This document shows positions 8,779-58,909 of a stretch of DNA of 64,000 nucleotides, piece by piece. The position numbers and the translations under genes were made by a program. The notes under the pieces were generated by a model. That model saw only the letters and a program-made list of their open reading frames with translations, did no database searches and was not told the DNA's origin. The stretch's first letter is position 1, and each line of letters opens with the position of its first letter. The DNA comes from Ailanthus altissimus (Eukaryota; Streptophyta; Magnoliopsida; Sapindales; Simaroubaceae), in the NCBI GenBank assembly GCA_946807835.1, contig CAMPEX010000001.1:8013001-8077000 (forward strand). The letters run 5' to 3'.

Positions 8779-9965
8779 CTTCTCTCCCTAGTGGATCTCC
8801 TTAATGGCACTTTCAGTTGAAGTTGTTGTTGTTACTCCTCTACATGAGTATGATTAGGTTCTTTAATATTAGCAAGAGCTATCTCATGAACATCTTGATT
8901 ATCTGTATTTGCATCATGTATAATGATATGTGTAATTACCTAGTCATTAACAATTGCAATATTGAGAATAGTAATATATTCATCTTCAAAGACAATGTTC
9001 CTGAGTTTAGAACTCCCACTATAATCAACATCCATAATGAATTTAGCATTCCCTGTCTCGAAAACGACTCTGCTTGAGGAATCATAAAACTTGAAACCCC
9101 TCGATCTCTTTGAGTATCTAATAAAGTAGTAGCTTATAAATTTTAAGTCAAACTTCCTTTCATTAGGCCTGTATGGTCTAGTCTCAGTTGGACAACTCTA
9201 GATATGCAAATGTCTAATACTAGGCTTCTTTTCATTCCATAGCTCAAATGGGGTTTTTGCTATTGCTTTACTTGGAACTCGATTAAGGATATACACTGCA
9301 GTCTTTAAGGCTTTGTTCTAAATGACATGTGCAATTACCTAATCATTATCATGCAATATTGAGAATAGTAATATATTCCTCTTCAAAGACAATGTTCTTG
9401 AGTTTAGAATTCCCACTATATTCAACATCCACAATGAATTTAGCATTCCCTGTCTCGAAAATGAATCTGCTTGAGGAATCATAAAACTTAAAACCCATCG
9501 ATCTCTTCGAGTATCCAATAAAGTAGTAGCTTATAAATTTTAAGTCCAACTTCCTTTCATTAGGCCTGTATGGTCTAATGAAAGCTGGACAACTCTAGAT
9601 ATGCAAATGTCTAATACTAGGCTTCTTTTCATTCCATAGCTCAAATGGGGTTTTTGCTATTGCTTTACTTGGAACTTGATTAAGGATATACACTGCAGTC
9701 TTTAAGGCTTTGTTCTAAAGAGATTCTGATAAAAAAGAATGATTTATCATACTTCTAACCATATCCTTTAGGGTCTGATTTCGTCTCTCAGCTACACCGT
9801 TTTGACTTGGAGTCCCCGACATGGTATATTGAGGAACGATGAAATATTTTTGCAAATATCTCGTAAAAGGGCCTGGACGTTGTTTACCTAATCCATTATA
9901 TTTACCATAGAATTCACTACCACGGTCAGATTTAACGACTTTAACTTTCTTGTCAAGCTGATTTT
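8779..9965 (-). pseudogene. Ty1/copia integrase fragment with internal tandem duplication
   Basis: From 9960 downward the minus strand encodes a Copia integrase: KVVKSDRGSEFYGKY (second catalytic Asp), GTPSQNGVAERRNQTLKDMV (catalytic Glu region), then WNKALKTAVYILN and KTPFELWNEKKPS. A TAG replaces the usual Trp after HLHI. The 9549-9349 stretch carries the C-terminal block YYFIGYSKRS and ETGNAKFI. Near 8810-8780 the integrase-RT linker VPLRRSTRERS appears, and it stops exactly at the LTR-like edge at 8778. RT and RNase H are missing. A 399-bp segment is duplicated in tandem (8922-9320 and 9321-9719), so the C-terminal block appears twice. The fragment is non-functional. Confidence 0.85.
8922..9719. 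repeat. Tandem duplication of 399 bp inside Copia integrase
   Basis: Unit 1 (8922-9320) and unit 2 (9321-9719) both start AATGAYATGTGYAATTACC and end GCTTTGTTCT. They differ by scattered substitutions and one 2-base indel. The duplication repeats the integrase C-terminal coding segment, so it happened in an already defective copy or inactivated it. Confidence 0.9.
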
Positions 9966-15113: not shown

Positions 15114-18100
15114 TCATGTGGAGCCATTAATGTTTCCCGCAATTCTAACAATTTGGTCAGCCTTAAAATTTCCATTCTGCTATACATGAACATGAGAGAA
15201 AAAATATAAGAAACTTAATGGTAGAAATATAAAATTTTGAACCCATATGCAGGCAACAATTATCTTCATAACTAGTACCCATTTGTGGGTTACTCACCTC
15301 TTCATTCCTGTTTAAGGAAGAACTCTGTCCAGTCTGGGGTGCTGCCTTGGAGAGATCCCTCAAAGTTCCCTAAGGCTCAGAAGTTTAAATTGCATATCAA
15401 CAAACACATAAATAAATAAATAGAACAAGCTACAGTAATGCCACTAAGAAATGAGAGATTAATGCCTGGACAATAAATTTGTTACAATCATATGTGTACA
15501 GTAAACAACAAAAGCATTGAACAGATGCAAACATGAAGGCAAAGACAATCATTGGCCTGCATAAAATCGACAGGACCAATGAGTAAAATGCACTATTTAG
15601 TCTCTACCAAAAAAAATAAATAAATTAACATGATAAAAAAACTGAATCAAGTGAAACCAAGAAGAAGCATTCAAGGTCATGGTTTTTCAACATGACTTTC
15701 AACGCACAAGAAAAGCAAAACAAATTTCATATTATTCATCCCTGCAGCTGAAAAACCTCACATTTCTAGATATCAATAAAAATCTCGGATTAACCATTTT
15801 ATGCATGAATTTTTGGTAGTTTTCTTGAAATCTTTCTCAATAATTATACAGAGACATCCAACTTCCCACTTCCCTGCCTGCATACTCATGCCTATACATC
15901 TACACTTGAACAAAAAAGCCAGAAAGTTGTACATACACATACATAAACATCAATGTAGAAAGTAAAAATTTTGGACAGTGTTCATGGAGTCGTCCACTAA
16001 TATTTAATGAAGAAGTCAATAAAGTATGCTGACATACAGAGTGAACAAATCTCTTGCACAAGAATGTGCAACCATGTCCTGTATGGGGCAGCATATTTTA
16101 AAGAATTTAAGATCATTTATATCTATCAACTTCACAACATTACTTTACATTGAATACTATTTAATATAACAAAGTTTAGTGATTAAATAAGAGATGATAG
16201 AGTGAGAGTCAATGTAAATACACTGCAGCTATATTGATACAGATACAAGTGCTTTACCTTGTTTGCCCACATAAGTCCACAGGCATTGCAAAGGGTCCTT
16301 GGTCCTTCCGGTCCACGTCGCATCATTGGTGTCGACTTCTCATTGATACCACAGTGGCGGCAACTGACAATTAAACATTAGAAATCATGAAATTTCATAA
16401 TTATACAGATTGATCAATGCGAACAAGGTTAAATAGATTTTTAATGCTATGAGACAGATTGCATTACATACATGTGGAGACTAAGATCCTACAGAATTTG
16501 CTCCCATCTCAATGAGATCTAAAGTTTTCAACGAGGCCCAAGTTTTCTGGTGACATTGTGCAATGTGCAAATACTAATCAGTATTCACAACTCAATGCAT
16601 CCACTAGTAACAAGGACAACTTAATTAATTCAACTCCTGTATCTCTTGTTCTAATTTGCCAATATATTCTTCTGAGATCTTTTACTTTAAAACAGCTTAT
16701 TTTGTCCTCTTAATATTTTAGGGCTCGTCTTCCACTCCTGGACGGCTTTGAATACCTCTACTAAAGCTACTAATCTGATTCACTTTGTTTCAGATGTTGC
16801 TGGGTCAACAGAAAACTAAATTTACATATACAGCTCAGGATGATTTCAAAATCCCTGGTATAAATTGCACTTAGATTTTACAAAAGACCAGAAAGAAAAT
16901 GTCTACTTACACAATCTCTTGATTTTGGGATCCATTACCATCCCCACCCCAGCTCTGATTTGAACCCCAGCTTGAAACTGCTGATGCAGAATCATCATTG
17001 TTGGACTTAGAAGAAGTAAACTGACCTTTATTTCGCTGCATCCTACAAGAGCAACAAAAAAGGGGACAGAGAAATAGAAGTAAACTACTTTTTCTGTTTT
17101 CCTTCTAGTAATTGTGATCTTATGCAATATAAGCAGCAACAAATGAGAAGTAGGAGAAAGAAAGAGAAATAGAAGCAAGGATGATCTGTAGAACAACAAA
17201 CTCTAACTCTTGGTCTTTCAATCATGTCACCTCTGCCCTAAAAAAATTACCCCAGAAATTTCTAAAAGGATAGGAAACATCATATCAAGCAGGTAAGAAA
17301 AGCAACTGACATCATAATAAGACCAGTTTAGGGAATTCGATATCAAGGTAGGACAAGCTTGAAAAAGTAATTTGGTAACGCATTAAGTCAGCTGGAATAG
17401 AAGATGCCTACATCGAGAGGCATCTTGACATATATATGGCAAATTTTTCAACAATAACGGAAATTTGATAGCCTCATTCCTCCGCTAAATTTATTGCAGG
17501 TTGTATTTTAACTGTGGCGGAAGGGATGCAAATTGTATCCTCACCTTTTAGGAAGTTTTTGTGTTTGTTTGTTTTTTTATCTTTTAGTAATGTTGTTCCT
17601 CAAAGAAGTGGAATTTATTTTCTCATTTAATTTATATTAGAAATTATAATACTTTCTTCGGTAGTTTTCCTTAATGTCGAGGGTTTGAGAATTAAAATAA
17701 TCCTTTGTTTAATTCTTCTCACTTCTATTATGTTTTGAGATTTTACTTTAAATAAAAGCAAAACATATGTCAAATCATTAGTATTGTAATTTGTACTATC
17801 AATAAAATATTTCTCTTTTTCAAAAGATTTTTATTATTTAATTATGTATCGGTACTTTATCACATTACGTCTTATGCTTAGGTAGCAGTGAACTGCTCCT
17901 CAATTACTGTTGGCCAGGTGAGATTTACTATCACAAAATTACTCATGATACATAGAAGAAAACCCTTATTCTTTTTACAGTTTTTCTTCGGCCTTTTCCT
18001 CTTACAATTTCCAACAATTTTAAGCAGCTTGTTTGATATTGTGTTTCTAGGTCTTTACTTTAGTAAACAAATCAATTTAAATTTCTAAATAGTTTTATTT

Positions 18101-21100
18101 TAAATTATTTTATGCAAGAGGCATACTTATATTTATGCCATCATATTTAGTTATATTAAAGAGCATTCATTGTAAAAACCTTTTCTTTTCACTTTTTTTT
18201 TCCTAAAGGTTTTTATGTAATGGGTTATAAATTTGATGGCATAAATATGATTTATTAATCTTGAAATTGTTAGCTAAGATATTTTTTTATTAAGACATGA
18301 ATTATGATTTATGTGATGGGTTAAAAATTGGATGGTAAAAATATGAATCGTTAATTATGAATGGTTAGTTTGTATATAACTTTTTTTTTCTAGACCTTTT
18401 CAAATTGTATAAAATTTTGTTTATAACTGACATTATTAAATTTACAAAATCGCAAAGGAAAAAAAAAAGTCTTGGAGAAGAAAACGATTATCTTGAAGAA
18501 TTGAAAGATGAAGATATTGCTACTTTAGCTCTTACTTGCATGAAAATTAGAAAAATATATAGTAAAGTGAAGAATAATTTACATAAACTAAAAATGAATT
18601 TGCAAAAAGATTAGACAAATAATTTTTTTATATAATAATCTGTGTGCAATTTATATTCTTCTAATCTTCATGCAAATTAGCCTTCAATTTGTTTGTCTAT
18701 TTTTATAATCTTCATGTAATTAAGAGGTAAAGCAAACAACAACCATTATCTTTTGAATTTTTCTCCATGACTTTTTTTCCTTGGTAATTCTGTAAAGTGA
18801 ATCTTTGAAGAAATGTCAGTTATTAACAAGATTTTATGTACTCTAAAAAGGTTTTTAAAAAAAAATCTACTCAAAAAAAAGTTGAAGTTGCATCTAAACT
18901 AACCATTCAAGATTCATAATTCATATTTTTACCATCCAATTTCTAACCCATCACAAAAATTATATTTAAAATCATCATTCATATGTCTCAAACTAGAAGT
19001 ATCATAGTTAACAATTTCATGAATCATAAATCATATTTATACAATCCAATTTTTAAGCCATCACATAATATATTTTAGAAAAAAAAAGTGAAAAGTGAAA
19101 GTTCTTTACAATAAATACTCTATTATATGTGTAAAATAATATAAAGTAAAAACTATTTAAAAATTTAAGTTGATTTATTTGCTAAAGTAGAAACCTAAAA
19201 ATATGATGTCAAAAAAGTGCTTTATAATTGTTGAAAAATGTAAGAGAAAATAGGTGAACAAAATAGAGAAAAAAAAAAAGAGTTTTCTACTTTGTATCAT
19301 GAGTTAATTTTGCAATGGTAAATCTTAATCGGTTGGCAACAACTGAGGAGTTCACCACCATCAAGGAATAAGACGTAATGGGATGAAACAAAGATAAAAT
19401 ATTAATAGTAAAAATCTTTTGAAAAAGATAAAAGTTTTATTGATAGTATAAATTACAATATTATTGATCTAACATATGTTTTGCTCTTATTTGAAGTAAA
19501 ATCTCAAATCATAATAGAAGTGAGAATTAAACAAAGGAGTATTCTAATTCTCAAATCCTTGACATTAAGAAAAACTACACAAGAAAGTATTCTAATTCAT
19601 AATATATATTACCTATTACAATAACCAAAGACGAGAAAATAAATTCCACTTTTTTGAGCAACGACATTATTTTAGGGAAAAAAAACAAACACAAAATCTT
19701 CCTAAATTTGTCTTTAAAATCTGCAAAGCAATTCTGATCGCTTAGACAGACAATAATTTGGCATCTTTTAAGAGGGACTAAAATCTTAAGTAGGAAACCA
19801 CCACTTTATGGAAGGGGAACCCAAGAAGGAGAAAAAGGGAGAAGTTAATTCTAGTTATCAAGAAGATTGCATTTGTCTATAGATATCTTACACAAACGTG
19901 TTTTCTCTCCTACCTTAATAAATGTAGGAGTTGAATGCACAACCATAACAGAAGTCACTGGCATCTGTCACTTAGGCTATACACCAATGTGTAATAGCTA
20001 ATACTACAAATTAATGGATGCCTTTCATCCCCAATCAATGGTGAGGAAGAACAACATAACTCAATAAAAAAATAGGCAATTAACCATTCATAATAAGACT
20101 TAAGAGTTTAAGAAAGCAGATTCCTTACCGAAGTGCTACTTCTTTACGGACAGTATAACGAATTTTCTTCTCAAAATTTCGCTCTTTCCGCTTTTCGCGA
20201 AATCTAATTAGTGAGGCCAATCTTTGTGGGACACTTAACCGTTGTGGAGTATCAGGTAGGCCCTGGTTCAACGATTGGTTAGCAAAATAATAAAATAGAA
20301 AAATTTATTCAACCAATTACTCGAGTCAACTACAATACCCGATTGTTATGAGGACTAGTAATTGGGATAGCAGGCATAGTTGGTGGTACTTCTTGCCCCC
20401 CCAATAATAAGAGTACCGCTTGAACCTACAGAAGATGCACAAAAAGGATTAAAGCTAACACCATTTTTTTTAATGAATATGCCATGAAGAAGGATAACCA
20501 AACACCAAATAGTTTAGTTAGAGAGAAATTGCATCTAAAAGTAACAAAAAGGCATATCTTATATAAAATTTCTCTATCTAGCAAAAAAGAATTATCGCAA
20601 CTTTATGGCAGTCTAATCAAACAACAGAATAGTAGACCTACCTTTTTAAGATGTTAAAGTCCTACCCTTAATAAAATTAGCTTGGATTGGAAAATTTTTC
20701 AAATTGGAAAATTTCCCAAAATATCTAAAGGGGAGGTGGAAAAGCAAACCCCTCAACATAAGAACTCAAAACATAAAAGGCCCTTCATAAAGAGGAATAA
20801 TATCACATAAAGACATATCCTAAAAATCAAAAGCTCTCCCATATCTCTTATACCAAATGCACCATCATGCTAAGAGTGCAATTTTCCAAAACATCCTTTT
20901 ATACATATCTCAAAAACACCCACACCATCCTTTCAACAAGCCTAGAGTAAGATAAGAAATAACCACTCTATAGTAGAATGAGCACAAAATAAGATTCCAA
21001 AACTCTCTAGCAAGAGTTTCAGTCATATTATATTTCCAGAAACACATGCAAGAAAAAGGTGCATACCACAAAGGAGATATGGGATATAAAGTAATAAAGC

Positions 21101-22666
21101 CACTTTCAGATTTTCTATGAAAAATCAATGATGCAAAGTAAAAAAGAGTTGAGACAAAAACTTAAACTCATTTTGGTAGTACGTTGTCACATTGAGAACT
21201 AATCTTTTGTTGTTCTCAATAGCTAAGTATTAAAGCACGTGACTTTAGTCATGGGTTTATACCTACTTATGGAGCTTTAATTGACAACGAACTAGAAAGT
21301 TCACAAAAAGAAGGGCTCAATTAAACCACTCACTGTTTTTTTTAGAGTAGACCTCATAATCCATTATGTAGACTCTGCTTTGGTTAATATAACAAGCCTA
21401 GAGCTGGTCACTTTGAAGATGAAAGTACATGTACTACTTACAAGAATCTGAACCAAGAAATTGATATATTGGTTACTTAAGATACTAATAGAAGCTACTC
21501 AAATTTGGGAATGAGCACATTGGTTTGCAAAGTTTCACACCTCTTGTGTGATTTGTTTATTGTGCCAAAAAGTCTTTACAAGAAAAAACGTGTGATATAT
21601 CATCTGGTAGAACCTAATACATGGAGCTCAATTAGTCTTATACTTCATCCATATAGGGTACCCTGCAACATGGTATTCAAGACATGAATCCCTATTATTT
21701 GCATTGGTCTTAAATCAAACACTAATGCGCTCTCTTACATTTTTCTACATCATCAACCTATCTCATCTAAGATTAAATTTTAGTGACCTATATAACAATA
21801 TGCCAGATTGTTTAAGAGTTACCAAGGGTATCCTTCCCATGTTTGTCAGTTTGATCCTAATCTGATGCAACAGTTCCAAGATGATCCTAAGGAAGCACTT
21901 CCAATGTAGTTCAGATCATGTGCTAAACTTGGAACCAAAAATAATTTTACCTCACAGACTAATTATTTGTCATACACGAGCCCACAACATTCTAACAATT
22001 AGGGCATGTAAAAGCCTGTAATAATGACATCCCTTTCTTACAATTTTTCACATCCACATGCACTAACAAATACTTTTTCCCATAGCCGTGCATGTCCCCA
22101 CATATTGGCACACAAGTTCGCCAATTAAACTAAATTGAATTAATTTGATTGTAAATTTTTGAATGAACGACATAGTATTCAGTTCACACATCACATCCAA
22201 TTTTTGAATTTGTATGACATTATTCACAGTAATGTTCAAGGCATAAAAGGTAGACTTATGGCAAAGAATCTCGATACAGTTCATGCTATACTAGAATATA
22301 TCAAAAAATCAAACAACACAATGAAAGTAATAGTAACTCAAAAAATATGAATTCAACAGAATCAAAAATCACCTTTTCGGGTGAAACAGAGTCGAACACG
22401 TAAACTTGACCCTGGAAAGACAATGTTAGTTGGTCCCTATTATCACCACTGCCACGATTATCAGAAATACTCCCAGGATCAGACGGCGCATCCCCGTCCA
22501 CAGCTTCACTCCCTCCGACACCATTACCTTCATCATGCTCATCATCCATCATACTCCCATTGCTCATATGATTCAGTTCATGCTCTTGCACGTAATTGAT
22601 GGGATGCATCGAATGCTGCCCGTCACTCATTTGCATTCGGGCATTGCTCCCATGCATTCCATCCAT
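15114..22666 (-). CDS. ZML: TIFY-CCT-GATA zinc-finger transcription factor, ZML type (seven coding exons)
   Basis: Coding exons on the minus strand are 22666-22373, 20425-20339, 20262-20129, 17042-16911, 16363-16258, 15369-15298 and 15176-15114. All have GT/AG borders and matching phases, summing to 888 nt (295 residues). Residues 1-78 are Met/His/Asp/Gly-rich and acidic. The TIFY domain (about 79-115) has the ZML form TLSFQG, followed by VYVFDSV and [10 protein letters not shown]. The CCT domain (about 135-173) includes [19 protein letters not shown]. The GATA finger is C217-X2-C220-X20-C241-X2-C244 with [18 protein letters not shown]. Proteins of this family (Arabidopsis ZIM, ZML1, ZML2) are nuclear DNA-binding regulators; ZML1/2 have been linked to light and photoprotective responses. 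The TIFY part mediates protein contacts and CCT supports nuclear location and contacts. No lesion is visible. ZML1 and ZML2 orthology cannot be separated by eye. Confidence 0.95.
17545..19706. mobile_element. Whole-element palindrome (foldback transposon) in intron of ZML gene
   Basis: The left arm starting TTTTAGGAAG at 17545 is the reverse complement, with substitutions and small indels, of the right arm ending CTTCCTAAA at 19706. Matching blocks include GTGGAATTTATTTTCTC (17610 area) against the 19640 area, ACTCATGATACA (17941) against 19300, GATGGGTTAAAAATTGGATG (18315) against 18940, and TAACTGACATT (18425) against 18815. The match continues almost to the centre near 18625, so each arm is about 1.05 kb with little unique core. 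The arms look roughly 20-25 percent diverged. No clear target duplication was found. The 69-codon stretch at 18405-18614 has its mirror image in the other arm and is probably not a protein. It lies in intron 17043-20128 of the GATA gene. Confidence 0.85.
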
Positions 22667-23570
22667 CCTCTCTTCTATACTTAAAAGACAATACAACAAA
22701 ATTTAAAGACCATCCCTCTTTACATATATGAATAAGCACACATATTGCATGTGCTCACAAGACAACCCAGACACAAGCATATGTAGATATAATAATTGTT
22801 TAATCAATTCAGTTTATAGCAACAAGCTGCTTTTGCATTCAAGTTGATGCAAAAGCTATCATTTGCTGAATCAAGTAACCTAATGCAGTTTCTTTTAGTT
22901 TAAATAAAATGTATTCACCTATTAGCCACATCCAACTTCACAGCTTAAGGCTCTGTTTGGTTACTGAGAAAATGAAAGAGAAGTTTCTCAGCACAAAAAC
23001 TCCATTCTTTTGAACCTAAAAAGAGCTTTAACATATCTCACAAACTAAGGTAAGGTCAAGTTTCTTCAAAATTGACATATACTCAGAAATAAAACAAAAA
23101 GAAAAACGGCTTCCGTTCTAATTTTCTAAACTTTCTCGGCAACTAAACAAATTTTTTTAATTTAAAAACTTAAACAAATACTACTTTAAAGATTTTTTTT
23201 TCAAAAAAATTTAATAATAACGATGTTTTTAATCCTTCTATTCGTTCAAATTTCAGTAGAAACTAAACAGGTAATTAAACAATAAATAGATATAAAATCA
23301 ATGAAAATTTAATTTTAAGTACCATTCGAGTGTATGAGTCATGACGAATCAAAAACCGGATTACGAATATCCGACACTGGAAGAAGGAGCTGAGAAATCA
23401 ACGGCGATTATTAATCAAACCGGCTGAGAAAGGGAGAGTGAGATCAGACAGGAGAAATTTCTGGCCGTCGAATGAGGATCGAAGGAGCTGAGAAATCAAC
23501 GGCGACGATTAAAGCGCTGGGAGACGAAGAAGGGGGTTGATGATTGCAACTTGGAAGGTGGTGGGAAGTT
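22667..23570 (-). promoter_or_regulatory. 5' UTR exon and 5' UTR intron of the ZML gene (predicted)
   Basis: An acceptor TTTTAAGTATAG ends at 22675, eight bases before the ATG at 22666, and a donor GAATG|GTACTT lies at about 23322. The segment 23323-23570 is GC-richer than its surroundings and pyrimidine-rich on the minus strand, as expected of a plant leader. It contains an upstream ATG (MTHTLEW...) close to the donor and an internal 24-bp direct duplication. The transcription start is not determined; sequence beyond 23570 is AT-rich, as in promoters. Confidence 0.5.
23383..23504 (-). repeat. 24-bp direct duplication in the predicted ZML leader
   Basis: The block GAAGGAGCTGAGAAATCAAC followed by GGCG (plus strand) occurs at 23383-23406 and again at 23481-23504, 98 bases apart, inside the predicted 5' UTR exon. 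Confidence 0.85.
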
Positions 23571-24399: not shown

Positions 24400-24829
24400 A
24401 ACCTTACTTATAAGGTTACAATGTAAATTCAATTCATAGTCGTAAAATCTCACTAGAATTAAAAAGTATTAAGGTTTCCCTTTCTTGGATTCATTTATTA
24501 GAGTTTTACTAAAATAAAGATTGATCATTTTTTACCATTATAGGACTTCTATCAAAATTATAGGAGTTGTATTTATAGATGAAATCTTAGATCTTGTAAT
24601 TCTTGATGGCAAGTCTGTTTTAGGTCGTTAGCATATAACTAGGGTGGTCTACTTAACCTAGGAAGATGGTTGGTTTGGCCAAGGAGGGCATCCAATGTCG
24701 AGCACCTAATACCGAGGACTCCTTTAGAAAAAATCGAGGACTTATAAGCTAGTTTGAGAATGTCTCTTGTTGGACTTTATTGAGGATAGTAAGCCTCAAC
24801 CGATGTATCCTTAAAGTATATGGGCTTAC
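24400..24829. repeat. Older LTR-like sequence split by the young retrotransposon (left part)
   Basis: Joining 24829 to 34079 restores a continuous sequence across the CTTAC target site. The combined piece has no coding signal but has LTR-like U3 character (GAGCACC, ACCGAGGACTCC type motifs) and a TATA element on the far side at about 34557. It is probably an LTR of an old gypsy-type element. The outer limits are not resolved. Confidence 0.35.
24825..24829. other. Target-site duplication, left copy (CTTAC)
   Basis: Five bases directly before the left LTR, repeated exactly at 34074-34078 after the right LTR. Confidence 0.9.
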
Positions 24830-27543
24830 TGTCACGCCCCAGACCCAAAAGATTTGACACACGACATCACTTACATTCATTCAATAATACTTAAACATTC
24901 ATTTTAATTTCTTTCAGAATTATAGTAATTGAATTATGACTGGGACAATTAATAAATCGGAGATACGCAGAGTTTTCTCAGAGATTAACACTCTACTACG
25001 TCACCAGTAGCAACTTTATTACCGGAAGCCCAGAATATATTCATTGCAAATTCTTACTTAAAATCAATCCATTACTACACTTGGTGAAACTTAAACTAAA
25101 TCCAACCACACACAATAAAATAATACATAAGTATTTATTCACTAGGGACAAATCAAATATCTTATCCCACGTGTCCCCAAATGAAACACTTAGCAACCTA
25201 ACAACTTAGGGAACCCAAGGAACAGCAGAAGCCTTGCCAAATCCGCTAAGCACACATGTACCTTATTTACCTGAAATCACCATAAACTATAATGAGTATA
25301 AAACTCAGTAAGCATACTAGTTTTTCATATATCAAATACAAATACATATATGTACACAATGCATATGTATGATATGCTGTGATCAATCAAAATCATAATC
25401 TTATCAAATCACATATCATGTAAGTGCTTACACATTCTTTCAAAACACATAATAGGTATACCATTACTCGACTACTACTTAGTAGGACTTACATATCACA
25501 TATCACATAATGAGCCAAATGTCACTCGTAGGTGACATACTGTATGAGAGGAATAGTACAAGTGAGGTCTTGAATAACACATATATAATGCTTATGCCCG
25601 AAGGTAAAAGCCAAACCCTCACCCTGATCATCGGTGAGTCCTCTCACATGCACCAATACGCCACCACACGAATGTGATGACTCACTCTTCCTTTAGGTAC
25701 CAATAGGATCCTCCCTACATACGGAACACATAACATATACCAATCCCAAAGGAAAGGCCACACATAAAGGCTCCATAATCACATAAAATGCCTACTAAGT
25801 TAACAGTGAGTTCAAGTACCCTCTAAATACAAAATATTTCTCATGGACATATTACACTTCAAAAGCTTTCTTTATTAAACACATCTTATTTTGAAAGCTC
25901 ACTTACAAAAACACATGTATGTCCATGCTCAATGTCAATGCTCACATTCAGAAACATATATTCACATTTCATATCAAAATATACTTTGACATAACATAAA
26001 CATATTCTTAACCCCATTTGCAAAATCATACAAAACAATTACTATGTTTATTGTGATTTCAGTAAAAAGTCTAGTATACTTACCTCTTAACACTTTCAGC
26101 TACAAGGCTTAAATCTCCTTAACCTATCAATGGAGATTAATCCTTTCATAAGCCTCACAATTCACACAAAATACTTTAAATAGCTTACAAAATTATACAC
26201 AATGCATTTATCACATCAAATTGGTCTAAATATTTGGTTTCTCAAAACCTGTCATTCTGACCACTTACACTTAACAAAAATTTCTAATACATCAAATGAT
26301 GTCCAATTACTCCAAAATCAGAATATACCATTCTTGACTCATATATCCTTCTTATATATGAATATTATATCAAATTTTCTACACAATCCATTCCATACAC
26401 ACCATCGAATCCAAACTACAAACCTGACAGGATCAAGATACTTACTGAACAGTATTCAATCTCCCAATTTTATAAAATCATATACTAACTCAAAAATTAT
26501 AAAACTACCACATAATTACTCTTAACACATATCTCAGTCCATGATAAATATTTCACTTTCAAATCACTGCCAAAAATATTTTAAAACTATTTTATTCTAT
26601 AACTTTAAAAATCTGTTAATCAAATATTGCAATGAGCTGATACACTTTAGAAATTCATAACACTTCAACCACATTGATCTAAATTCTCAATTCCGAGTAT
26701 ATCATATTAGACATATAAAATTATCATATTTCACAAATTCATAATTTTTGAAGATCATTCAGTAGGACAAAAATTATTTTTCACTGTACTATACTGTTTA
26801 CACAGGAAATTTCCAGAATTTCAGGGTTATTTTGGTAAATTCACTATAAATTCAATTTCCAGAATTTTCAATCGATTCAAAGTCTCAGATGATCCTTAAC
26901 ATGTCTAATTTCATATACTCAAAATTCAAAACCAGAATCGAATCACAACAATTTATAAAATTCCTAGATCAAGAGGTTATCCAGCAGAAATTCCATAATT
27001 CATCATGATTTATCAAACTATCTTATAGATTATCATCAATTCTCATATGATCTAACGAAATACACAACAAATCCTCAATTATACATATTTTCAGAAATCA
27101 AAACTTAAAGGAATTAACTTAATTAATACCAATAAATTGAGAAATACGTATGATATACCTCTTGAAATTCAAAATTCCAATTTCTTCTTCTTTTTCTTCT
27201 TCTTCTCCTCTTTCTCTCTCCTCTATTTCTCTCTTCTCTCTCTTAAAATGGGTAGCTCGACCTAAAAATGGTAAATTAGGGTTTAAAAGTGTATTTTTAT
27301 ACTAAGAGGCTAATTTTTGGTATTTACAAATTTACCCCCAAAACTTTCAAAGTATAACAATTTGGTCCCTAAAATAAATCTAAAGTCATACAAATAAACC
27401 CAATACTAATCGTATATCCTTAACCTATAAAATATTACTAATAACAATATATAATTCAAATATCACCAACATACAAATAAAATACGTATATTTATACATA
27501 TATAAATACTTATTCTTACCAGTCGTGGATACTGGTTACTACA
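24830..27543 (-). repeat. 3' LTR of the young retrotransposon
   Basis: 2714 bp, same length as its partner, differing at about 19 positions by my reading with no length change. The left end of the interior is the polypurine tract, so on the element's own strand this is the 3' LTR. It contains a pyrimidine tract (27181-27240). The 107-codon stretch at 26202-26525 occurs in both LTRs and shows no domain. Confidence 0.95.
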
Positions 27544-27558
27544 ATTCTCCCCTCCTTA
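27544..27558 (-). other. Polypurine tract
   Basis: On the minus strand AAGGAGGGGAGAAT directly precedes the LTR start TGTAGTAACC, the place where plus-strand DNA synthesis primes in LTR retrotransposons. Confidence 0.85.
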
Positions 27559-27564
27559 TAAGAA

Positions 27565-27680
27565 TTTCGTCCTCGAAATTCATGACTTAAGCAAACATAT
27601 GGGGATACTTAGATCCCATTTCTTATTCTCATTCCCAAGTTTCCTTTTCAACAATATGGTTTATTCATAAAACATTTACA
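27565..27680 (-). pseudogene. C-terminal remnant of gypsy (chromovirus) polyprotein
   Basis: On the minus strand, allowing stops, this reads HIVEKETWE then EMGSKYPHMF and NFEDEIL. That resembles the VEEATWE.E..M...YPHLF end of chromodomain-bearing plant gypsy polyproteins, followed by the conserved NFEDEIL segment just before the polypurine tract. It shows which family supplied the element: a Tekay/Del-like chromovirus by inference. Everything upstream of it has been lost. Confidence 0.7.
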
Positions 27681-28289
27681 AAGCAATCTTCCTTGTATAT
27701 AGGATTTGCTCATTGTGGTCCAAAATCCTGATAAACAGTCATTCATATGTTCGATTATCTCTAAGTTGGCTCATAGCTTAGTATATGAGAGAAGTACGAA
27801 ACATTCATCCATAAAATAAACACATGACACACATTATGGACTTATAAAATATACACACATATTTTTATTCTTTTCTCTCATTCATTCAATATTTAATGGG
27901 CATCTATACACTTCACCTTTTATTCATTAAAGAATAATATAGATGTAGAATACACATACTAATCTCTTACATAAAATTCTTAACTCCTCTAAAAATTTTA
28001 ATCCCTTCAACATATACTCATACGTCATAATATCATTCACTACCTTGATATCATTCAAAAAAAAAATGTAACATTTCTACGCAACTAAGTTGTCATTCAA
28101 ATCAGAATATTGAAGGCATTATCTTAAACGATCAAAAATCAACTTCAATAAAAAGACCTTTAGTTCAACTGATTCTTAAACTATAGATCTTAACATTATA
28201 TCTCTTACTTTAACTCTTAAAAAAAATAGTCCACCTTATTGGACATCATTTTCTCATTGAGATTGACATGTCTGCTTTTTTTTTTTTCT

Positions 28290-28933
28290 TCTAATATGCT
28301 CAATTTCAAACAGAAAAGATTCTACTAGCACAATTATTGCGATGGCAAATATGGTTTTTCAACTATTCCTTTAACGTCATCCACGTAAAAGAAAAGGACA
28401 AAACGATTATTGATTTTCTTTCACAAAACTCTATAAATAGCCTAAACCTCATAATCACTTTTCTAGCAATAAAGAAAACCAACCCTCTTACCATCTTCAT
28501 AATGAATCCCATTATCATAACTCCTCATGTTCCTTTTACTCCACCACAATTTTCAGACCTAATCAGAACCAGAACACTCCATTCCCGTGCCAAAGAATTC
28601 ATCAGACACTACGCCATCTTGGCAGTCCAAGAACACGGCCTCACAGTTCTTGGTGGCCCTTCGTTCAACTTGGAATACCCTTTCTTTCACCTGCACTATT
28701 TTTTCCCATTTTCTCAATGGTCCAAATCTGTCCTTTACTTGTTATGGTACCTATTGGATCTGTATACAATCGTCATGGAATTCCCATTACTTAGAACCGT
28801 CCAAAAATTAGAAAAATGTGATGAAGATCATCCAGCCCTGATTTTTCTCCAATGGTTTTACCCAAAGACATGGTGGATAACTAAATTTCAACACATGATT
28901 ACAAACAACACAAATGCTGCAGTCCCTAGATAA
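28290..28933 (+). pseudogene. Endogenous caulimovirid-like fragment: RNase H tail and start of downstream ORF
   Basis: The reading frame enters near 28290 and at 28337-28425 shows the end of a pararetroviral RNase H domain (RWQIWFFNYSFNVIHVKEK, then DKTIIDFLSQ; compare the usual HIKGKDN..ADFLSR). The same frame continues past an ATG at 28502, which may be the original start of a separate downstream ORF, into a Trp/Phe/Tyr/Leu-rich segment (FFPFSQWSKS, YLLWYLLDLY, FYPKTWW) I cannot assign. A TAA at 28931-28933 interrupts it. Movement, coat, protease and most RT sequences are absent, so this is a dead relic. Caulimoviridae (florendovirus or petuvirus side) is my best reading; a divergent retrotransposon is possible. 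Confidence 0.6.
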
Positions 28934-29662
28934 CATCTTTGGTCTGTTTTACTTCTCCAACGAAAGGGTATGATTGTTTCAGATCATGAAATCCATTATT
29001 ACCCCACTGTCAAGGATTACCTCACCTTTACCCTTTCACTAAAGGGATCAATTAAGCTCTGGCCTGAAGAAGTAATCCAGCAAAAGAGAGAACTTGAAAG
29101 AATTCTTGCTCAAGAAAACCAGATAATTCCTCCATCCGTTTGGATCTCCCCAGAAGATGCTGCACCTTGGGAACAAGTTGAAGATGACTTTGCAGAAGAA
29201 CTGAATTTTGCCAATATACTCAAATTTCAACAAAGACAAAAACATCATCTTTCACATCATAGAAATACAAATTACTCTACCCACCATCACCATATCCCAA
29301 ACATGACTTATTATGCCAGATACAGACAAGAAATCGATAACCTTCACCAATGGCCTCAGCCACCTGTCCCGACAGAACCTACTCAATCTCAGCCAGTTGT
29401 CCCGACAGAACCTGACCAACACCAACCCAATCTTGACTTATCCCTCTTTCAAGACTCCCAACCTTATCCAACCGACACCCAAATCCAAGAGGAAGCCAGC
29501 ACATCCCTCATCCAGACCAGCTCACCTGGAGAAGATCAAGATATGGTAGACCCACATTCCACTCAGCCAGAGCCCTCATTCAATGCATGGGAACAACAAC
29601 TCCATAAGTTCCTCTCTCACGGATACGACACAGATGAAAGCGACCAAGGAGACTCATTTTGA
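28934..29662 (+). pseudogene. Continuation of the caulimovirid-like downstream ORF (acidic, Pro/Gln/His-rich C-terminus)
   Basis: This is in the same frame as the preceding fragment, separated only by the single TAA. It has a 230-codon run from 28970. The first part has YYPTVKDYLTFTLSLKGSIK and helical KRELERILAQE, then WISPEDAAPWEQVEDDF. The second half is low-complexity and hydrophilic: a His cluster, two VPTEP repeats, and an acidic tail ending DTDESDQGDSF. I do not recognise a domain. Florendoviruses are described as having a second ORF of unknown function after the RT-RNase H ORF, which this position would fit. The length of preserved frame suggests recent decay. Confidence 0.55.
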
Positions 29663-30259
29663 CCTACATTGCTGTTTTTATTTTCACAGAAACTAAATCC
29701 GTGTTGCTCTATCACATCAAAGAGAGACTGACTACTGCTTTATCTTTATGTCAAGTGTGCTTTATTTTTCTTTATGTCTGCTTTTAATCTATCGGTCAAA
29801 AATCAATGTTAAGACCACAAAAATTCTTGAAATTAATAAAGTTAATTTGGCCTCATGTCCAAAGTCCAATTGTTCGCTCAAAAAGTCTTCAAGTCATAGA
29901 TGCATTGTCGGCCATTAGTGCCAAAACGACAAAGTCCCTAAATCCATAAAATAGGCCTTTATTGACTTTTCTTAATTATCTTACCTAACTCATCACGCTT
30001 CCGACACAATTTTTATCACACTTACATATCAACATATATTTATTCAAGATTTTGCGGCCTATTGTCCCTTATAAAATGATAAAGTAAAACTGATTCTTTT
30101 TTTTTTTTTTTTTGCCTCACAAGAATCGAGAAAAATATATACTTGAATATACTTACACATATGCTCCATAGCTATTATCAATTTGTTTCTCTATAAATAC
30201 ATTATTTTTACATCCTTATACAAACTCAAAAATATTCAAAGATTAGGGTGAGCGTAACA
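29663..30259 (+). promoter_or_regulatory. Spacer with promoter-like signals ahead of the LOG ORF
   Basis: No coding signal. A TATAAATA box lies at 30192-30199, about 60 bases ahead of the LOG start codon, with a T-run at 30098-30113 upstream. AATAAAG at about 29835 could end a transcript from the viral ORF. Whether this is a viral intergenic promoter or the promoter of the gene that donated LOG is not decidable by eye. Confidence 0.45.
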
Positions 30260-30913
30260 ATGGAGGAAACCTCAGCTCGTCGATTTACAAAAATTTGTGT
30301 CTTTTGTGGATCCAACCCTGGAAATACTGAAGAGTTTACAAAAGTTGCAGAAAATCTTGGTAAGGTATTAGCTGAGCGAAATATACATTTAGTATATGGA
30401 GGAGGTAACTGAGGGTTAATGGGGTCTGTGGCAAAAGCTGCACATAATAAAGGTAGTCGAGTTTTGGGTATTATTCCAAAACCTCTAGCTATTGAAAATA
30501 TTGTAGGAAAAACAGTTGGGGATGAGTTACAATTCTCATCTATGCACGAGCGAATGGCTCAAATGCTTAGGCATGCGGATGCTTTCATAGCTCTACCAGG
30601 AGGTTTCGGGACCTTGGAGGAAATTTTTCAAATTGTCTCATGGGCACAATTACAAATCCACCAAAAATCCATTGGTTTGTTAAATGTTAATGGTTTTTAC
30701 GACGGGTTGATATCTTTCCTTGACTATGCAACGGGAACACAATTCATCCCACTTCTAGCACGACGGATTCTTATTTCAGCTCCAACTGTTGATCAATTAA
30801 TTGATCAATTACAGTCTTTTATTCCTCTGTCTAATCCAACATTGCATCAGTTAGATTGGTCTACTCATGACAGTCAGAAGAAGCGCAAAATAGACTTAAA
30901 TCTCACTCCGTAG
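30260..30913 (+). pseudogene. LOG-like: LOG-family cytokinin riboside 5'-monophosphate phosphoribohydrolase, intronless, one nonsense codon
   Basis: LOG enzymes release free cytokinin bases from cytokinin ribotides in the cytosol and nucleus. The ORF starts MEETSARRFTKICVFCGSN at 30260 and covers the full family length, 217 codons. Visible hallmarks are ICVFCGSNPG near the N-terminus, YGGG at about residues 46-49, SSMHERMAQM, and the nucleotide/phosphate motif PGGFGTLEE. Codon 51 is TGA (30410-30412) in the second glycine loop, where relatives have a residue such as Arg or Val; a CGA-to-TGA change fits. Otherwise the frame is clean. Plant LOG genes normally have several introns; this copy has none. 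The C-terminus KKRKIDLNLTP combines a basic patch with DLNxxP, the form of an EAR repression motif. A poly(A) signal AATAAA follows at 30968. It lies inside, and antisense to, an LTR retrotransposon. Confidence 0.9.
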
Positions 30914-31339
30914 CCTCTACTATATTTTTGTTGCTGCTATTGTTGTTGTGTTGTTGTTTTCCTTTTCAATAAAAGTTGTTTCAATTGATGTCTTCAATAC
31001 TCTACTTCTCTATATTTTGTCATTGAGAAAATTATCTCAATTTGCTCTATCACATGCAAATTATCATTATAAGATATTCAACATCACTTTTACTAAGCAT
31101 ATGAGTCATAACTAAAAAACAAAATCTAAATAGTAACATTAAGATCCACAAGGTACCATTATCCACAACAACAACAATCTTAGCAGCTCTTGGATAATGT
31201 GTCATCTTCACAAAATCATACAAAATTTAAGGAATATGTCAAACTTTTACACAACAAAGCTACAAATACAATCCTAAGGATTTGGCATCTGCTCGGTTCC
31301 CTTGACTCGACACTTAAAAGTCTACAGAATCATATCTTA

Positions 31340-31351
31340 GCTCTGATACCA
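31340..31351 (-). other. Primer binding site (initiator tRNA-Met)
   Basis: TGGTATCAGAGC on the minus strand, eight bases inside the 5' LTR, complementary to the 3' end of plant initiator tRNA-Met. It fixes the element's orientation as minus. Confidence 0.93.
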
Positions 31352-31359
31352 ATAAAAGC

Positions 31360-34073
31360 TGTCACGGCCCAGACCCAAAAGATCTGACACACGACATCAC
31401 TTACATTCATTCAATAATACTTAAACATTCATTTTAATTTCTTTCAGAATTATAGTAATTGAATTATGACTGGGACAATTAGTAAACCGGAGATACGCAG
31501 AGTTTTCTCAGAGATTAACACTCTACTACGTCACTAGTAGCAACTTTATTACCGGAAGCCCAGAATATATTCATTGCAAATTCTTACTTAAAATCAATCC
31601 ATTACTACACTTGGTGAAACTTAAACTAAATCCAACCACACACAATAAAATAATACATAAGTATTTATTCACTAGGGACAAATCAAATATCTTATCCCAC
31701 GTGTCCCCAAATGAAACACTTAGCAACCTAACAACTTAGGGAACCCAAGGAACAACAGAAGCCTTGCCAAATCCGCTAAGCACACATGTACCTTATTTAC
31801 CTGAAATCACCATAAACTATAATGAGTATAAAACTCAGTAAGCATACTAGTTTTTCATATATCAAATACAAATACATATATGTACACAATGCATATGTAT
31901 GATATGCTGTGATCAATCAAAATCATAATCTTATCAAATCACATATCATGTAAGCGCTTACACATTCTTTCAAAACACATAATAGGAATACCATTACTCG
32001 ACTACTACTTAGTAGGACTTACATATCACATATCACATAATGAGCCAAATGTCACTCGTAGGTGACATACCGTATGAGAGGAATAGTACAAGTGAGGTCT
32101 TGAATAACACATATATAATGCTTATGCCCGAAGGTAAAAGCCAAACCCTCACCCTGATCATCGGTGAGTCCTCTCACATGCACCAATACGCCACCACACG
32201 AATGTGATGACTCACTCTTCCTTTAGGTACCAATAGGATCCTCCCTACATACGGAACACATAACATATACCAATCCCAAAGGAAAGGCCACACATAAAGG
32301 CTCCACAATCACATAAAATGCCTACTAAGTTAACAGTGAGTTCAAGTACCCTCAAAATACAAAATATTTCTCATGGACATATTACACTTCAAAAGCTTTC
32401 TTTATTAAACACATCTTATTTTGAAAGCTCACTTACAAAAACACATGTATGTCCATGCTCAATGTCAATGCTCACATTCAGAAACATATATTCACATTTC
32501 ATATCAAAATATACTTTGACATAACATAAACATATTCTTAACCCCATTTGCAAAATCATATAAAACAATTACTATGTTTATTGTGATTTCAGTAAAAAGT
32601 CTAGTATACTTACCTCTTAACACTTTCAGCTACAAGGCTTAAATCTCCTTAACCTATCAATGGAGATTAATCCTTTCATAAGCCTCACAATTCACACAAA
32701 ATACTTTAAATAGCTTACAAAATTATACACAATGCATTTATCACATCAAATTGGTCTAAATATTTGGTTTCTCAAAACCTGTCATTCTGACCACTTACAC
32801 TTAACAAAACTTTCTAATACATCAAATGATGTCCAATTACTCCAAAATCAGAATATACCATTCTTGACTCATATATCCTTCTTATATATGAATATTATAT
32901 CAAATTTTCTACACAATCCATTCCATACACACCATCGAATCCAAACTACAAACCTGACAGGATCAAGATACTTACTGAACAGTATTCAATCTCCCAATTT
33001 TATAAAATCATATACTAACTCAAAAATTATAAAACTACCACATAATTACTCTTAACACATATCTCAGTCCATGATAAATATTTCACTTTCAAATCACTGC
33101 CAAAAATATTTTAAAACTATTTTATTCTATAACTTTAAAAATCTGTTAATCAAATATTGCAATGAGCTGATACACTTTAGAAATTCATAACACTTCAACC
33201 ACATTGATCTAAATTCTCAATTCCGAGTATATCATATTAGACATATAAAATTATCATATTTCACAAATTAATAATTTTTGAAGATCATTCAGTAGGACAA
33301 AAATTATTTTTCACTGTACTATACTGTTTACACAGGAAATTTCCAGAATTTCAGGGTTATTTTGGTAAATTCACTATAAATTCAATTTCCAGAATTTTCA
33401 ATCGATTCAAAGTCTCAGATGATCCTTAACATGTCTAATTTCATATAATCAAAATTCAAAACCAGAATCGAATCACAACAATTTATAAAATTCCTAGATC
33501 AAGAGGTTATCCAGCAGAAATTGCATAATTCATCATGATTTATCAAACTATCTTATAGATCATCATCAATTCTCATATGATCTTACGAAATACACAACAA
33601 ATCCTCAATTATACATATTTTCAGAAATCAAAACTTAAAGGAATTAACTTAATTAATACCAATAAATTGAGAAATACGTATGATATACCTCTTGAAATTC
33701 AAAATTCCAATTTCTTCTTCTTTTTCTTCTTCTTCTCCTCTTTCTCTCTCCTCTATTTCTCTCTTCTCTCTCTTAAAATGGGTAGCTCGACCTAAAAATG
33801 GTAAATTAGGGTTTAAAAGTGTATTTTTATACTAAGAGGCTAATTTTTGGTATTTACAAATTTACCCCCAAAACTTTCAAAGTATAACAATTTGGTCCCT
33901 AAAATAAATCTAAAGTCATACAAATAAACCCAATACTAATCGTATATCCTTAACCTATAAAATATTACTAATAACAATATATAATTCAAGTATCACCAAC
34001 ATACAAATAAAATACGTATATTTATACATATATAAATACTTATTCTTACCAGTCGTGGATACTGGTTACTACA
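31360..34073 (-). repeat. 5' LTR of the young retrotransposon
   Basis: 2714 bp, ending TACTACA and followed by the target duplication CTTAC at 34074-34078. It is near-identical to 24830-27543. As the upstream LTR on the element strand it would carry the active promoter. Confidence 0.95.
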
Positions 34074-34078
34074 CTTAC
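34074..34078. other. Target-site duplication, right copy (CTTAC)
   Basis: Exact match to 24825-24829. Confidence 0.9.
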
Positions 34079-51349: not shown

Positions 51350-53650
51350 CTTCTCTAAATTAATATCCTGACTTCTCCTATATTCTCAAATTAAATTATA
51401 TTAGATATCAATCTATTTTGATATTATCCAATATGATATATTTATTTGTAAGACTAATTAATTTAATAATATTTATAACATATAAATACAAGTAAATATA
51501 ACACTTTAAGGACACAATTATCAAATAACTATTAGTTTTAAAATATTTATAATTCATAAAAATAGTTTTCCTAAAGCTTATATTCAAAAGGTTATCAAAA
51601 GAAAAATTAATATATTATTGAGATATATGTATTAAAATCTATTTAGACTTTAATTGAATTTAAATTCTAATCATTACATTTCTTAAAAGAAAAATAAATT
51701 ATAAATACAATTTCAATTATATTTAGAGTTACATACCAATTACAACTTCAATTCTAATTACATGTATAGTTATTACATTTTAAGTTCAATTTTAATTTTA
51801 ACTTTTACATGATTATTTCTAATTAGTATATTTTCAATTACAATTACGATTTCAAATCTAACTTTAAATACATACAATTCCAATTCCATTAAGTTTATAA
51901 TTATTATATTTTCTATTCAATTTTCAATTCTTATGATTCATTTTCAATTATGATTATGATTTCAATTATAACACCAATCACATACAATTACAATTTTAAT
52001 TACATTTATAATTATTATATTTCTAATTTAAATTTAAATTATAATAATTAAATTTTGGATTATAAATACAATTTTGATTATAATTACAAGTACATACTAG
52101 TTATAATTTCAATTTCAATTATATTTTTAATTTAATTTTAATTTTTTATTACATTTTCAATTACAATTATGACTTCAATTCTAACTCTAAATACATACAA
52201 TTCCAATTCTAATTATGTTTATAATTATTATATTTTCTATTCAATTTTTAATTCTTAAAAATTACATTTTCACTTACAATTATGAATTTAATTCTAACTC
52301 AAATCACATACAATTACAATTCTAAATAAATTTAAAATTATAATATTTTCAATTTAAATTTCAATCTAATATTTACATTTTAGATTATAAATATAGTTTT
52401 GATTATAATTTCAATTACATACTAGTTACAATTTTAACTCTATATATATTTATAATTATTACATTCCAATTTAAATTTTAATTATGATACTTACATTTTT
52501 AATTATATTTTACTTTTATGTTATTATATTTTGAATTATAATTACGAATTCAATTCTAACTCCAACCAAATACAATTACAATTCCAATTATGCTTATTAC
52601 GAATTCAATTCTAACTCCAACCAAATACAATTACAATTCCAATTATGCTTGTAATTAATACAATTCTAATTTCAATTTCAATTCTAATAATTACATTCCA
52701 AATTATAAATACAATTTTGATTATAATTCTAATTACATACAAGTTACAATTTCAATTCTAATTATATTTATAATTATTATATTTCCAATTCAATTTTAAT
52801 TCTAATTATTATACTTTTAATTACAATTATGTTGTTGAGCTTCGGTTGCTAACTGAATTGGTTAGCACCTCAAAGCTCACCCCCTCTGACCATTAGGCCG
52901 GAGGGGTTTGATTCTCTCCTCCACTTGAGTGCGGTTTTGTTTGCGTGTGTTATAAATATGTATCAAAAATTATATTTATAATTTTAATTCTAACTCCAAA
53001 TACATACAATTACAATTACAATTCTAATTACGTTTATAATTATTATATTTTCTATTCATTTTTAATTCTTAAAAATTACATTTTCAATTACAATTACGAT
53101 TTTAATTCTAACTCCAAGCATGTACAATTATAATTATAATTATTAAATCTTCAATTTAAATTTTAATTCTAATAATTACATTTCAAATTATAAATACAAT
53201 TTTAATTATAAGTCTAATTATATAATAATTACAATTTAAATTATAATCATATTTAAAATTATTACATTTCCAATTCAATTTTAATTCTATTTATTACATT
53301 AATTTTGAGTTACAATTATGATTTTAATTCTAACTCTAAATGCATACAATTCCAATTCTAATTCTAATTATGTTTATAATTATTATATTTTCTATTCAAT
53401 TTTTAATTCTTATGATTATATTTCAATTACAATTACAATTTCGATCCTAACTCCAATCACATACAATTGCAATTTCAATTACGTTCATAATTATTATATT
53501 TCTAGTTTAAATTTCAATTATAATAAATATATTTCGAATATATAAATACAATTTCAATTATAATTTCAATTACATGCTAATTACAATGTTGTGACTAAAT
53601 ACTAATCATAATTCGATTATAAATACAATATTATAAATATAATTTTAATT
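51350..53650. repeat. AT-rich degenerate repeat block with 320-480 bp higher-order period
   Basis: About 2.3 kb consists almost wholly of short variants of AATTACAATTCTAATT and TTTATAATTATTATATTTC. A longer order is visible: phrases like ATTATAAATACAATTTTGAT recur near 51690, 52066, 52389, 52706, 53190 and 53540, each followed by TTACATACTAGTTACAA-like sequence. A 56-base segment around 52545-52655 is repeated exactly twice (GAATTCAATTCTAACTCCAA). The open stretches at 52945 and 53318 (Tyr/Asn/Ile-rich) are products of this composition. Confidence 0.85.
52832..52955 (+). mobile_element. tRNA-related SINE-like insertion
   Basis: An island of normal base composition inside the AT-rich block. 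TTGCTAACTGAATTGGTTAGC (52846-52866) resembles an A box, and GGGGTTTGATTCTCTCC (about 52903-52919) resembles a B box with a short stem around it, about 50 bases apart as in Pol III promoters. It ends GGTTTTGTTTGCGTGTG, T-rich as in some plant SINEs. It cannot fold as a complete tRNA by my reading. No clear target duplication is visible in the repetitive surroundings. Confidence 0.5.
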
Positions 53651-53659
53651 ATAATTCCA

Positions 53660-58124: not shown

Positions 58125-58909
58125 GTATTTACTTCATGTTAATGCGTTAAAGTTTAAACTATTATGGATATGAATTGAATTCTTTTGCTATTGCTTTGTT
58201 TTTAATTTTGCGCAATCTATATCTTGCTAATAATTGAACCGTGTCATGATTTAGCTTAGGAAGAAAAACTAAGAAACAAAATAAGTTATTGGGTGATAAA
58301 GTATAACTTCTTTTTTTCTAAGTATTTGTGGTGGTCATTTCAGTATTTTTCAGCTTATCTTGATCAACTTAAACCTGGGTTTGATGTCTTCTTGTGTGTG
58401 AATATGTAGCTTTTATTTATCTTGATCGAATTAAACGTGAGTTTGGTTTCTATGGCTGTTTTTACAATGTTTTTGTTTTCTTCAATGTACAATTATTAAA
58501 TTTAGATCCAAATGTAGATATCAAAGTTGGTATTTTGCGTCTTGTGAGTGCTTAACTTCAGAAAGCTTCAATCTCAAGTTCTTAGTGTCATTCACACCCA
58601 TCTTCAATTTTCTGTTTTTTTTTTTTACTTCTGAACCATGCTGTGCTTTGTATTGCCATCTTTTATGATTATGAAGCTTTGTGCTGAAGAAAGTGCTAAG
58701 TTGAGATAGATATATTTCTCATAAAGTTTCTTATGAAATAGATGGATGTGTTGTTTAACAGTTTAACTAATTTGTGTTGCCTTGGTACACTTTGCTTAAT
58801 TTGGTGCATTGTTAGGTCAATATTTGTTAATATTGTTGTAGTTGAGTTGTAAATTTGTTAAGTGTTATGACTTATGAGTTAGTAACTTGTTTGTGTTAAT
58901 TTAATTTAG

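Follow-up and report, generated by a model that had tools for sequence, protein, structure and literature searches.

A LOG-type (YgdH) domain has been reported in Ty3/gypsy elements of Citrus and Populus, according to the sections seen of PMC9289625, which cites Steinbauerova 2011. Extra ORFs in antisense orientation are frequent in gypsy elements, and the antisense gene of Grande is reported to have a promoter of its own (excerpts of PMC7264820 and PMC11963269). Among caulimovirids, the ORF2 product of florendoviruses is given as 45-58 kDa, and in most of these viruses ORF2 lies in a frame other than that of ORF1 (Geering et al., PMC4241990, in the pages available). For eBSGFV in Musa, Gayral et al. 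have suggested a chimera of retrotransposon and caulimovirid (as summarized in part of PMC10377300). In a partial check of the literature, a link between LOG and retroelements was found in the portion seen of PMC9289625 alone; the sections seen of PMC10606437 mention both PF03641 and retrotransposons and draw no link between them.

The 64,000-nt stretch of DNA analysed here (the window) carries a retrotransposon on the minus strand, 9.2 kb in all, whose 3.8-kb interior lies between LTRs that differ by 19 substitutions and no gaps in the LTR alignment and have the termini TG...CA. The earlier note had described matched LTRs, a target duplication, a tRNA primer site and a minus-strand polypurine tract, and all of these, by which an LTR retrotransposon is recognized, were found again. 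The primer-site sequence occurs as an exact match only once on the two strands of the window, and we take it to be of the Met-tRNA type. Also right was the note's central observation, that a caulimovirid-type relic and a LOG gene (cytokinin riboside 5'-monophosphate phosphoribohydrolase) lie between the LTRs. The features are as follows.

24825-24829, unstranded: left target-site duplication CTTAC, from sequence reading.
24830-27543, minus strand: 3' LTR, 2714 bp, 99.3% identical to 31360-34073.
27545-27557, minus strand: polypurine tract AAGGAGGGGAGAA, adjoining the 3' LTR, read directly.
27558-28294, unstranded: interior of unrecognised origin, 29% GC, with no recognised domain (ORF and Pfam scan, composition).
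28295-28501, plus strand: open stretch beginning with a caulimovirid-type RNase H C-terminus (about 34 aligned residues) and sharing the reading frame of the ORF that follows (phmmer match to 8r0s, shuffles).
28502-29662, plus strand: ORF with no assigned function after the RNase H tail, with a nonsense codon at 28931-28933 (comparison with P0001).
29663-30259, unstranded: spacer of 597 bp, 31% GC, with TATAAAT at 30192 and a run of 17 T at 30097 (composition and motif search).
30260-30913, plus strand: LOG pseudogene with an intronless reading and the C-terminus KKRKIDLNLTP (PF03641, P0002).
30914-31339, unstranded: interior from LOG to the primer site, with AATAAA at 30968 and no recognised domain (Pfam scan, motif search).
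31340-31351, minus strand: primer-binding site TGGTATCAGAGC, 8 nt from the 5' LTR (sole exact match in the window).
31360-34073, minus strand: 5' LTR, 2714 bp, from the LTR comparison.
34074-34078, unstranded: right target-site duplication CTTAC, from sequence reading.

The note had described the element as having lost almost all its genes, and the minus-strand scan agrees with this. Every stop-to-stop piece of at least 35 residues in the interior was scanned (n = 18); none had a gag or pol domain in Pfam at E up to 1, and 17 of the 18 had no Pfam match whatever at that level. The remaining piece, which lies antisense to LOG, gave a weak match to a DUF (E = 0.071). The gag-pol of an autonomous Ty3/gypsy element, with reverse transcriptase, RNase H and integrase, was not found in any of the 18 pieces, so that the window element is at most a non-autonomous derivative of such an element. 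With complete ends and no recognisable gag-pol, it presumably depended for its movement on proteins supplied by an autonomous relative. The primer site and the context of the purine tract may resemble those of a Tekay-type chromovirus; it is on such end features and on the LOG literature, rather than on pol sequence, that a Ty3/gypsy assignment would be based.

The reading that we favour, with moderate confidence, is of a recent non-autonomous gypsy-type element in which an antisense LOG gene has long been resident and to which a pararetroviral fragment was added separately. The two interior genes and the spacer between them are taken in turn.

LOG was identified by the Pfam family Lysine_decarbox (PF03641, 1.4e-38 for the larger piece) and by the motif PGGxGTxxE, present as PGGFGTLEE in the window copy and in P0002, an intact relative that is 98% identical to it; the next relatives are 74% and 73% identical. 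The predicted fold of P0002 matches 2a33, and comparison with PDB sequences likewise points to LOG. The gene had been called a full-length ORF, and the whole length of the protein is indeed covered, but the reading is broken by a single in-frame nonsense codon at 30410-30412. Prokaryote genomes scanned with a Populus LOG gave four bacterial LOGs at 42-48% identity and no plant-like match.

The window LOG type groups with largely multicopy plant LOG proteins from Populus, Reevesia, Paulownia and other sources, and P0002 falls inside this tailed group. Dispersal is indicated by the 120 best-listed relatives, 20 of which are gene models of Reevesia pubescens with 12 different chromosome numbers among their locus tags, and by clusters of up to 205 members among the LOG matches listed. 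An LxLxL C-terminal end, mostly after a basic stretch, was present in 103 of the 120, which are the best listed of 7954 hits, so that such counts describe the nearest relatives of the window LOG rather than plant LOGs in general. The window type, P0002 and P0004 end instead in DLNxxP. Both kinds of end resemble EAR co-repressor motifs, and in P0002 the tail is predicted to be disordered (pLDDT below 50 at residues 196-217). Trees were made from 24 of the 120 listed proteins, hand-picked from 80% clusters (at least 205 residues, 20 clusters) with three shorter proteins added, P0075 and P0114 representing the cluster of P0048. With the tail columns left out, all 18 of the LxLxL-tailed rows counted stood apart from three untailed rows (support 98/97); P0002, P0100 and P0005, the last having a tail that continues into other sequence, are left out of this count. 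A literature search, in part superficial, found no published account of an EAR-like C-terminal tail on LOG proteins, and neither "EAR motif" nor "transpos" appears in PMC11593424, on LOG evolution. Location inside an LTR element was seen for the window LOG alone, the Citrus and Populus cases being taken from print (PMC9289625, in the part seen), and some of the dispersed genes of the clade, known here as proteins, may have arisen as duplicates or retrocopies of host genes.

The window LOG does not have the appearance of a newly captured mRNA. The first of the two models in the earlier note, in which a host LOG mRNA and a viral RNA were recently captured by template switching within the element family, is weakened because the gene sits within a clade of largely multicopy LOGs, and we regard it as unlikely. 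It agrees with the absence of introns from the window LOG, but the nearest relatives of this gene are other tailed LOGs, with the three untailed rows outside them, and a TATA-like box (TATAAAT at 30192) stands 68 nt upstream of the LOG start where a copied mRNA would lack one. The viral block has the same 13-nt CTTTTTTTTTTTT at either edge (at 28275 and at 30096), as homopolymer template switching could leave. There are, however, 36 homopolymer-type runs in the window, which makes two within the interior ordinary, and as template-switch scars the edge runs were given no weight.

With E values of up to 1 allowed, the RNase H tail matched a single PDB sequence, the C-terminus of the CaMV reverse transcriptase (8r0s, E = 0.0024 with phmmer), and none of 20,000 shuffled tails reached the score of the real one against the 8r0s fragment. 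The tail ends in RWQxW...DFLS, the same as the CaMV protein, and is of caulimovirid type over about 34 aligned C-terminal residues alone; it gave no Pfam match. A pararetroviral RNase H tail on the strand opposite to the element, as first described, is thus upheld. The long ORF assigned to 28290-29662 is present behind this tail but is not open, the stop at 28931-28933 dividing the reading of tail plus ORF into two pieces, 28295-28930 and 28934-29659. It has an intact relative, P0001 (397 aa, 46.7 kDa), that is 91% identical, and the single-sequence structure model of P0001 (pLDDT 38.8) was too poor for a fold search. The window copies of LOG and of this viral-type ORF are therefore both broken, by one nonsense codon each, and intact relatives of both exist.

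As protein and Pfam searches detected no relative of the ORF besides P0001, its viral nature rests on the 34-residue tail match and on its position. P0001 falls within the size range of florendovirus ORF2 and corresponds in position; the window ORF shares the frame of the tail. The ORF might instead be a non-viral accessory ORF of the retrotransposon, in which case the rest of the favoured reading may still hold. The want of other relatives would fit this, as would the antisense ORFs lacking known relatives that gypsy elements often carry (PMC7264820 and PMC11963269, in the passages seen), but the ORF is preceded in frame by a tail that ends as the CaMV reverse transcriptase does, this being the tail's sole PDB match, and we think a non-viral origin rather improbable.

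The second model of the earlier note, a caulimovirid that had already acquired LOG and whose ORF and LOG entered the retrotransposon together by recombination, draws on the arrangement of the two genes. They have the same orientation, 597 bp apart, and are alike in GC content (40.4% for the ORF and 39.1% for LOG, against 29-31% in the LTRs, the spacer and the other interior stretches). The spacer had been called promoter-like; it does hold the TATAAAT, and an AATAAA follows at 30968, but motifs are no proof of function. Against this model, the wide clade that includes the window LOG is placed in gypsy elements by the literature, and the plus strand of the interior has no primer-site match at fewer than 3 mismatches. 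IMG/VR gave no relative of the ORF and no close relative of LOG (one match, L006, at 40% identity), although this collection may be poor in plant pararetroviruses, since a DNA pattern for the caulimovirid RNase H motif picked out five stretches there, none of them caulimovirid when the translations were inspected by eye. We judge this model improbable. Chance nesting, in which an unrelated viral fragment and a LOG retrocopy inserted after the element did, is very improbable, for although plant genomes often contain caulimovirid sequences (PMC10377300, in part), with LTRs only 0.7% diverged two further insertions would have had little time to occur, and nested insertions with their own duplications were not found, the chosen flanks of both blocks giving only a 9-nt word and the T run of 13 nt.

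In the favoured reading, then, the window element would be a recently inserted, LARD-like element of Ty3/gypsy type with complete ends. Its antisense LOG would come from an old clade of LOGs, serving as an accessory gene of gypsy elements with promoter-like and poly(A)-like signals of its own. The RNase H tail and ORF would be a fragment of a florendovirus-like caulimovirid, probably taken up when two reverse-transcribing genomes recombined or a template switch occurred between them. In working relatives, LOG would release active cytokinin in the cells that express the element, which would favour dividing, meristem-type cells and thereby new insertions that are inherited.

A further proposal is tentative, and we give it little weight. 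A gypsy-borne LOG of single origin, with a basic stretch resembling a nuclear import signal and an EAR-type end, might activate cytokinin and also work in the nucleus by way of TOPLESS, and would here form, with the pararetroviral ORF, a mobile two-gene antisense cassette in an LTR shell devoid of the element's genes. If mobile elements have long kept a working cytokinin-activating enzyme, the hormone must benefit the element, and this, if true, would directly link a selfish element to the control of plant growth. The shared tail makes co-repressor binding and nuclear entry of the enzyme cheaply testable. The chimera is relevant, too, to the possible role of LTR elements in bringing pararetroviral pieces into chromosomes.

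The earlier note had known of no such arrangement, but with LOG in gypsy elements, antisense ORFs and a caulimovirid chimera already in print, the locus is less isolated than it seemed. The Citrus and Populus YgdH elements resemble it in having a LOG-type gene as an extra, and Populus proteins belong to the clade of the window LOG; their consensuses, in the text seen, were built around reverse transcriptase, whereas the window element has no recognisable pol and has a caulimovirid-type block beside LOG. Grande, RIRE2 and Retand likewise have their extra ORFs in antisense. The domains given for Retand are TRP28, Smc and others, with no LOG listed, and its LTRs are 315-1194 bp long compared with 2714 bp here (for all three, PMC7264820 and PMC11963269, as excerpted). 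In florendoviruses, as in the window, a second ORF stands behind the RNase H end, with a product of about 45-58 kDa that has no known relatives; the window has the last 34 or so RNase H residues and the ORF alone, the likeness being one of place and size, and its frame differs from that of most florendoviruses (PMC4241990, pages available). The eBSGFV chimera also joins viral sequence to Ty3/gypsy, but in that case the element flanks the virus, whereas in the window complete LTRs enclose a viral fragment along with an enzyme gene of plant type (PMC10377300, in part). Because LOG-type genes are already known from gypsy elements, the window element is a striking variation and not a new kind of system.

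The element carries, antisense to its own direction, a viral-type block and a LOG gene (for cytokinin riboside 5'-monophosphate phosphoribohydrolase); both cargo genes are broken.

24830-34073, minus strand: complete LTR retrotransposon, the sole such element reported in the window
28295-29659, plus strand, antisense to the element: viral-type block, by translation a single reading frame with one stop at 28931-28933
30260-30913, plus strand: LOG gene, by translation and Pfam read without introns and with one stop at 30410-30412

All the terminal features described in the earlier note were found again: matched LTRs of 2714 bp, flanking CTTAC target duplications, a primer site and, beside the 3' LTR, a purine tract. 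The LTRs have TG...CA termini, and the primer site, an exact TGGTATCAGAGC, lies 8 nt off the 5' LTR. Pairwise alignment of the LTRs gave 19 internal differences and no gaps (0.7%), a 20th mismatch coming from the 4 flanking bases included. With plant substitution rates taken as between about 2.5e-9 and 1.3e-8 per site per year, the insertion dates to roughly 0.3-1.4 million years ago. In the interior, a scan of the 18 stop-to-stop pieces on the minus strand with at least 35 residues turned up no recognisable gag or pol domain; its single domain match was a weak one to a DUF (E=0.071), antisense to LOG.

A minus-strand ORF with a tify domain (22301-22699; PF06200, 4.7e-9) is probably one exon of a TIFY/ZIM-type gene, with the element about 2.1 kb away on the gene's upstream side. 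Elsewhere, two plus-strand ORFs at 59004-61062 encode a hAT-type transposase (zf-BED; hAT-like RNase-H plus Dimer_Tnp_hAT). A GC-rich-looking array of 91-bp units (57473-58126; rest of the window 31% GC) is open in several frames. The remaining repeats are a foldback at 17547-19706 matching its own reverse complement over its full length (71%), a tandem pair of a ~397-bp unit at 8922-9719 (94% identical) and a diverged, mostly AT-rich array at 51631-54497.

The viral-type block had been described as an open frame at 28290-29662; its RNase H-type start held up but the frame is interrupted. That start aligns with the RNase H C-terminus of CaMV reverse transcriptase (8r0s, E=0.0024), and no other PDB entry matched it at E up to 1. 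The alignment scores 90 where 20,000 shuffles reached at most 45; Pfam gave no match for this tail. From 28502 onward the ORF matches P0001, an intact protein of 397 residues (46.7 kDa), at 91% over its whole length, and two word-based searches of 5.8 billion proteins returned no further relative.

The LOG identity was likewise borne out, although the "full-length ORF" reported earlier contains a stop. The larger piece matches PF03641 (1.4e-38) and Arabidopsis At2g37210 (6.6e-44), and PGGFGTLEE is retained. P0002, a relative with no such interruption, shares 98% identity with the window copy; its predicted fold (mean pLDDT 79.8, 13 relatives aligned) superposes on 2a33 with a TM of 0.91 by target length.

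LOG relatives were the best 120 of 7954 matches, scoring being confined to the 8000 candidates sharing most words. Among those listed, 86 have 215-217 residues, and many come from dispersed, multicopy families in Populus species, Paulownia fortunei and Reevesia pubescens, the last contributing 20 rows with tags of 12 chromosome numbers; clusters hold up to 205 members.

An exact LxLxL end is present in 103 of the 120, and likewise in representatives of 16 of 20 clusters (80% identity); among the 103, 99 carry three or more K/R between positions -13 and -7. Only one listed relative has LxLxL upstream of the last eight residues. DLNLTP, which fits DLNxxP, stands in its place in the window copy and in two of the 120, P0002 and P0004. 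Across the 20-cluster alignment the tail's leucine columns have entropies of 0, 0.31 and 0.31 bits (P0002 has P in the third), against 1.34 and 1.93 between them and up to 2.9 in the preceding linker. The P0002 tail is predicted to be disordered. LxLxL and DLNxxP are two forms of the EAR motif, which binds TOPLESS co-repressors. Judged from sequence, a terminal LxLxL or DLNxxP, mostly behind a basic stretch, is a mark of the listed plant relatives of the window copy; as a marker of the clade the tail is tentative, three untailed rows supplying the whole of the contrast.

In a tree of 24 listed relatives and two Arabidopsis LOGs, all 18 counted LxLxL-tailed rows fell on one side of a branch supported at 98/97 with tail columns excluded, and at 95/90 with these columns and a bacterial row included. 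P0002 falls inside the tailed group; untailed P0042, P0075 and P0114 (the last two both Xanthoceras) sit between it and Arabidopsis. Because of the multicopy relatives and the placement of P0002, the window LOG most likely derives from an old, mobile-looking lineage and not, as one earlier proposal had it, from a fresh copy of host mRNA captured by the element.

We lean, with somewhat better than even confidence and with LOG clade members outside the window known as proteins only, towards a non-autonomous gypsy-type element with a long-resident antisense LOG. Such an element would have been moved by a partner, the pararetroviral fragment would have been taken up separately, and cytokinin activation may benefit elements expressed in dividing cells. 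That the pararetroviral ORF and LOG, which share a strand, formed one unit and recombined as a block with a retrotransposon is a less probable reading. At the level of protein sequence, the intact P0001 and P0002 are evidence for close full-length relatives of both cargo genes, though not for their lying in one element.

The element is a real, unusual chimera, and its chief interest lies in the tailed LOG clade; its kinds of component are each known singly. Florendovirus ORF2 is described by Geering et al. (PMC4241990) as a 45-58 kDa product with no known relation, behind an ORF1 ending in RNase H. The window ORF is a candidate counterpart by place and size; its frame relation to the RNase H tail is unlike that in most florendoviruses. 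PMC9289625 records a YgdH (LOG-type) domain in Ty3/gypsy consensuses from two species of Citrus and also, when no filter was applied, from Populus trichocarpa; LOG in such elements was therefore already known.
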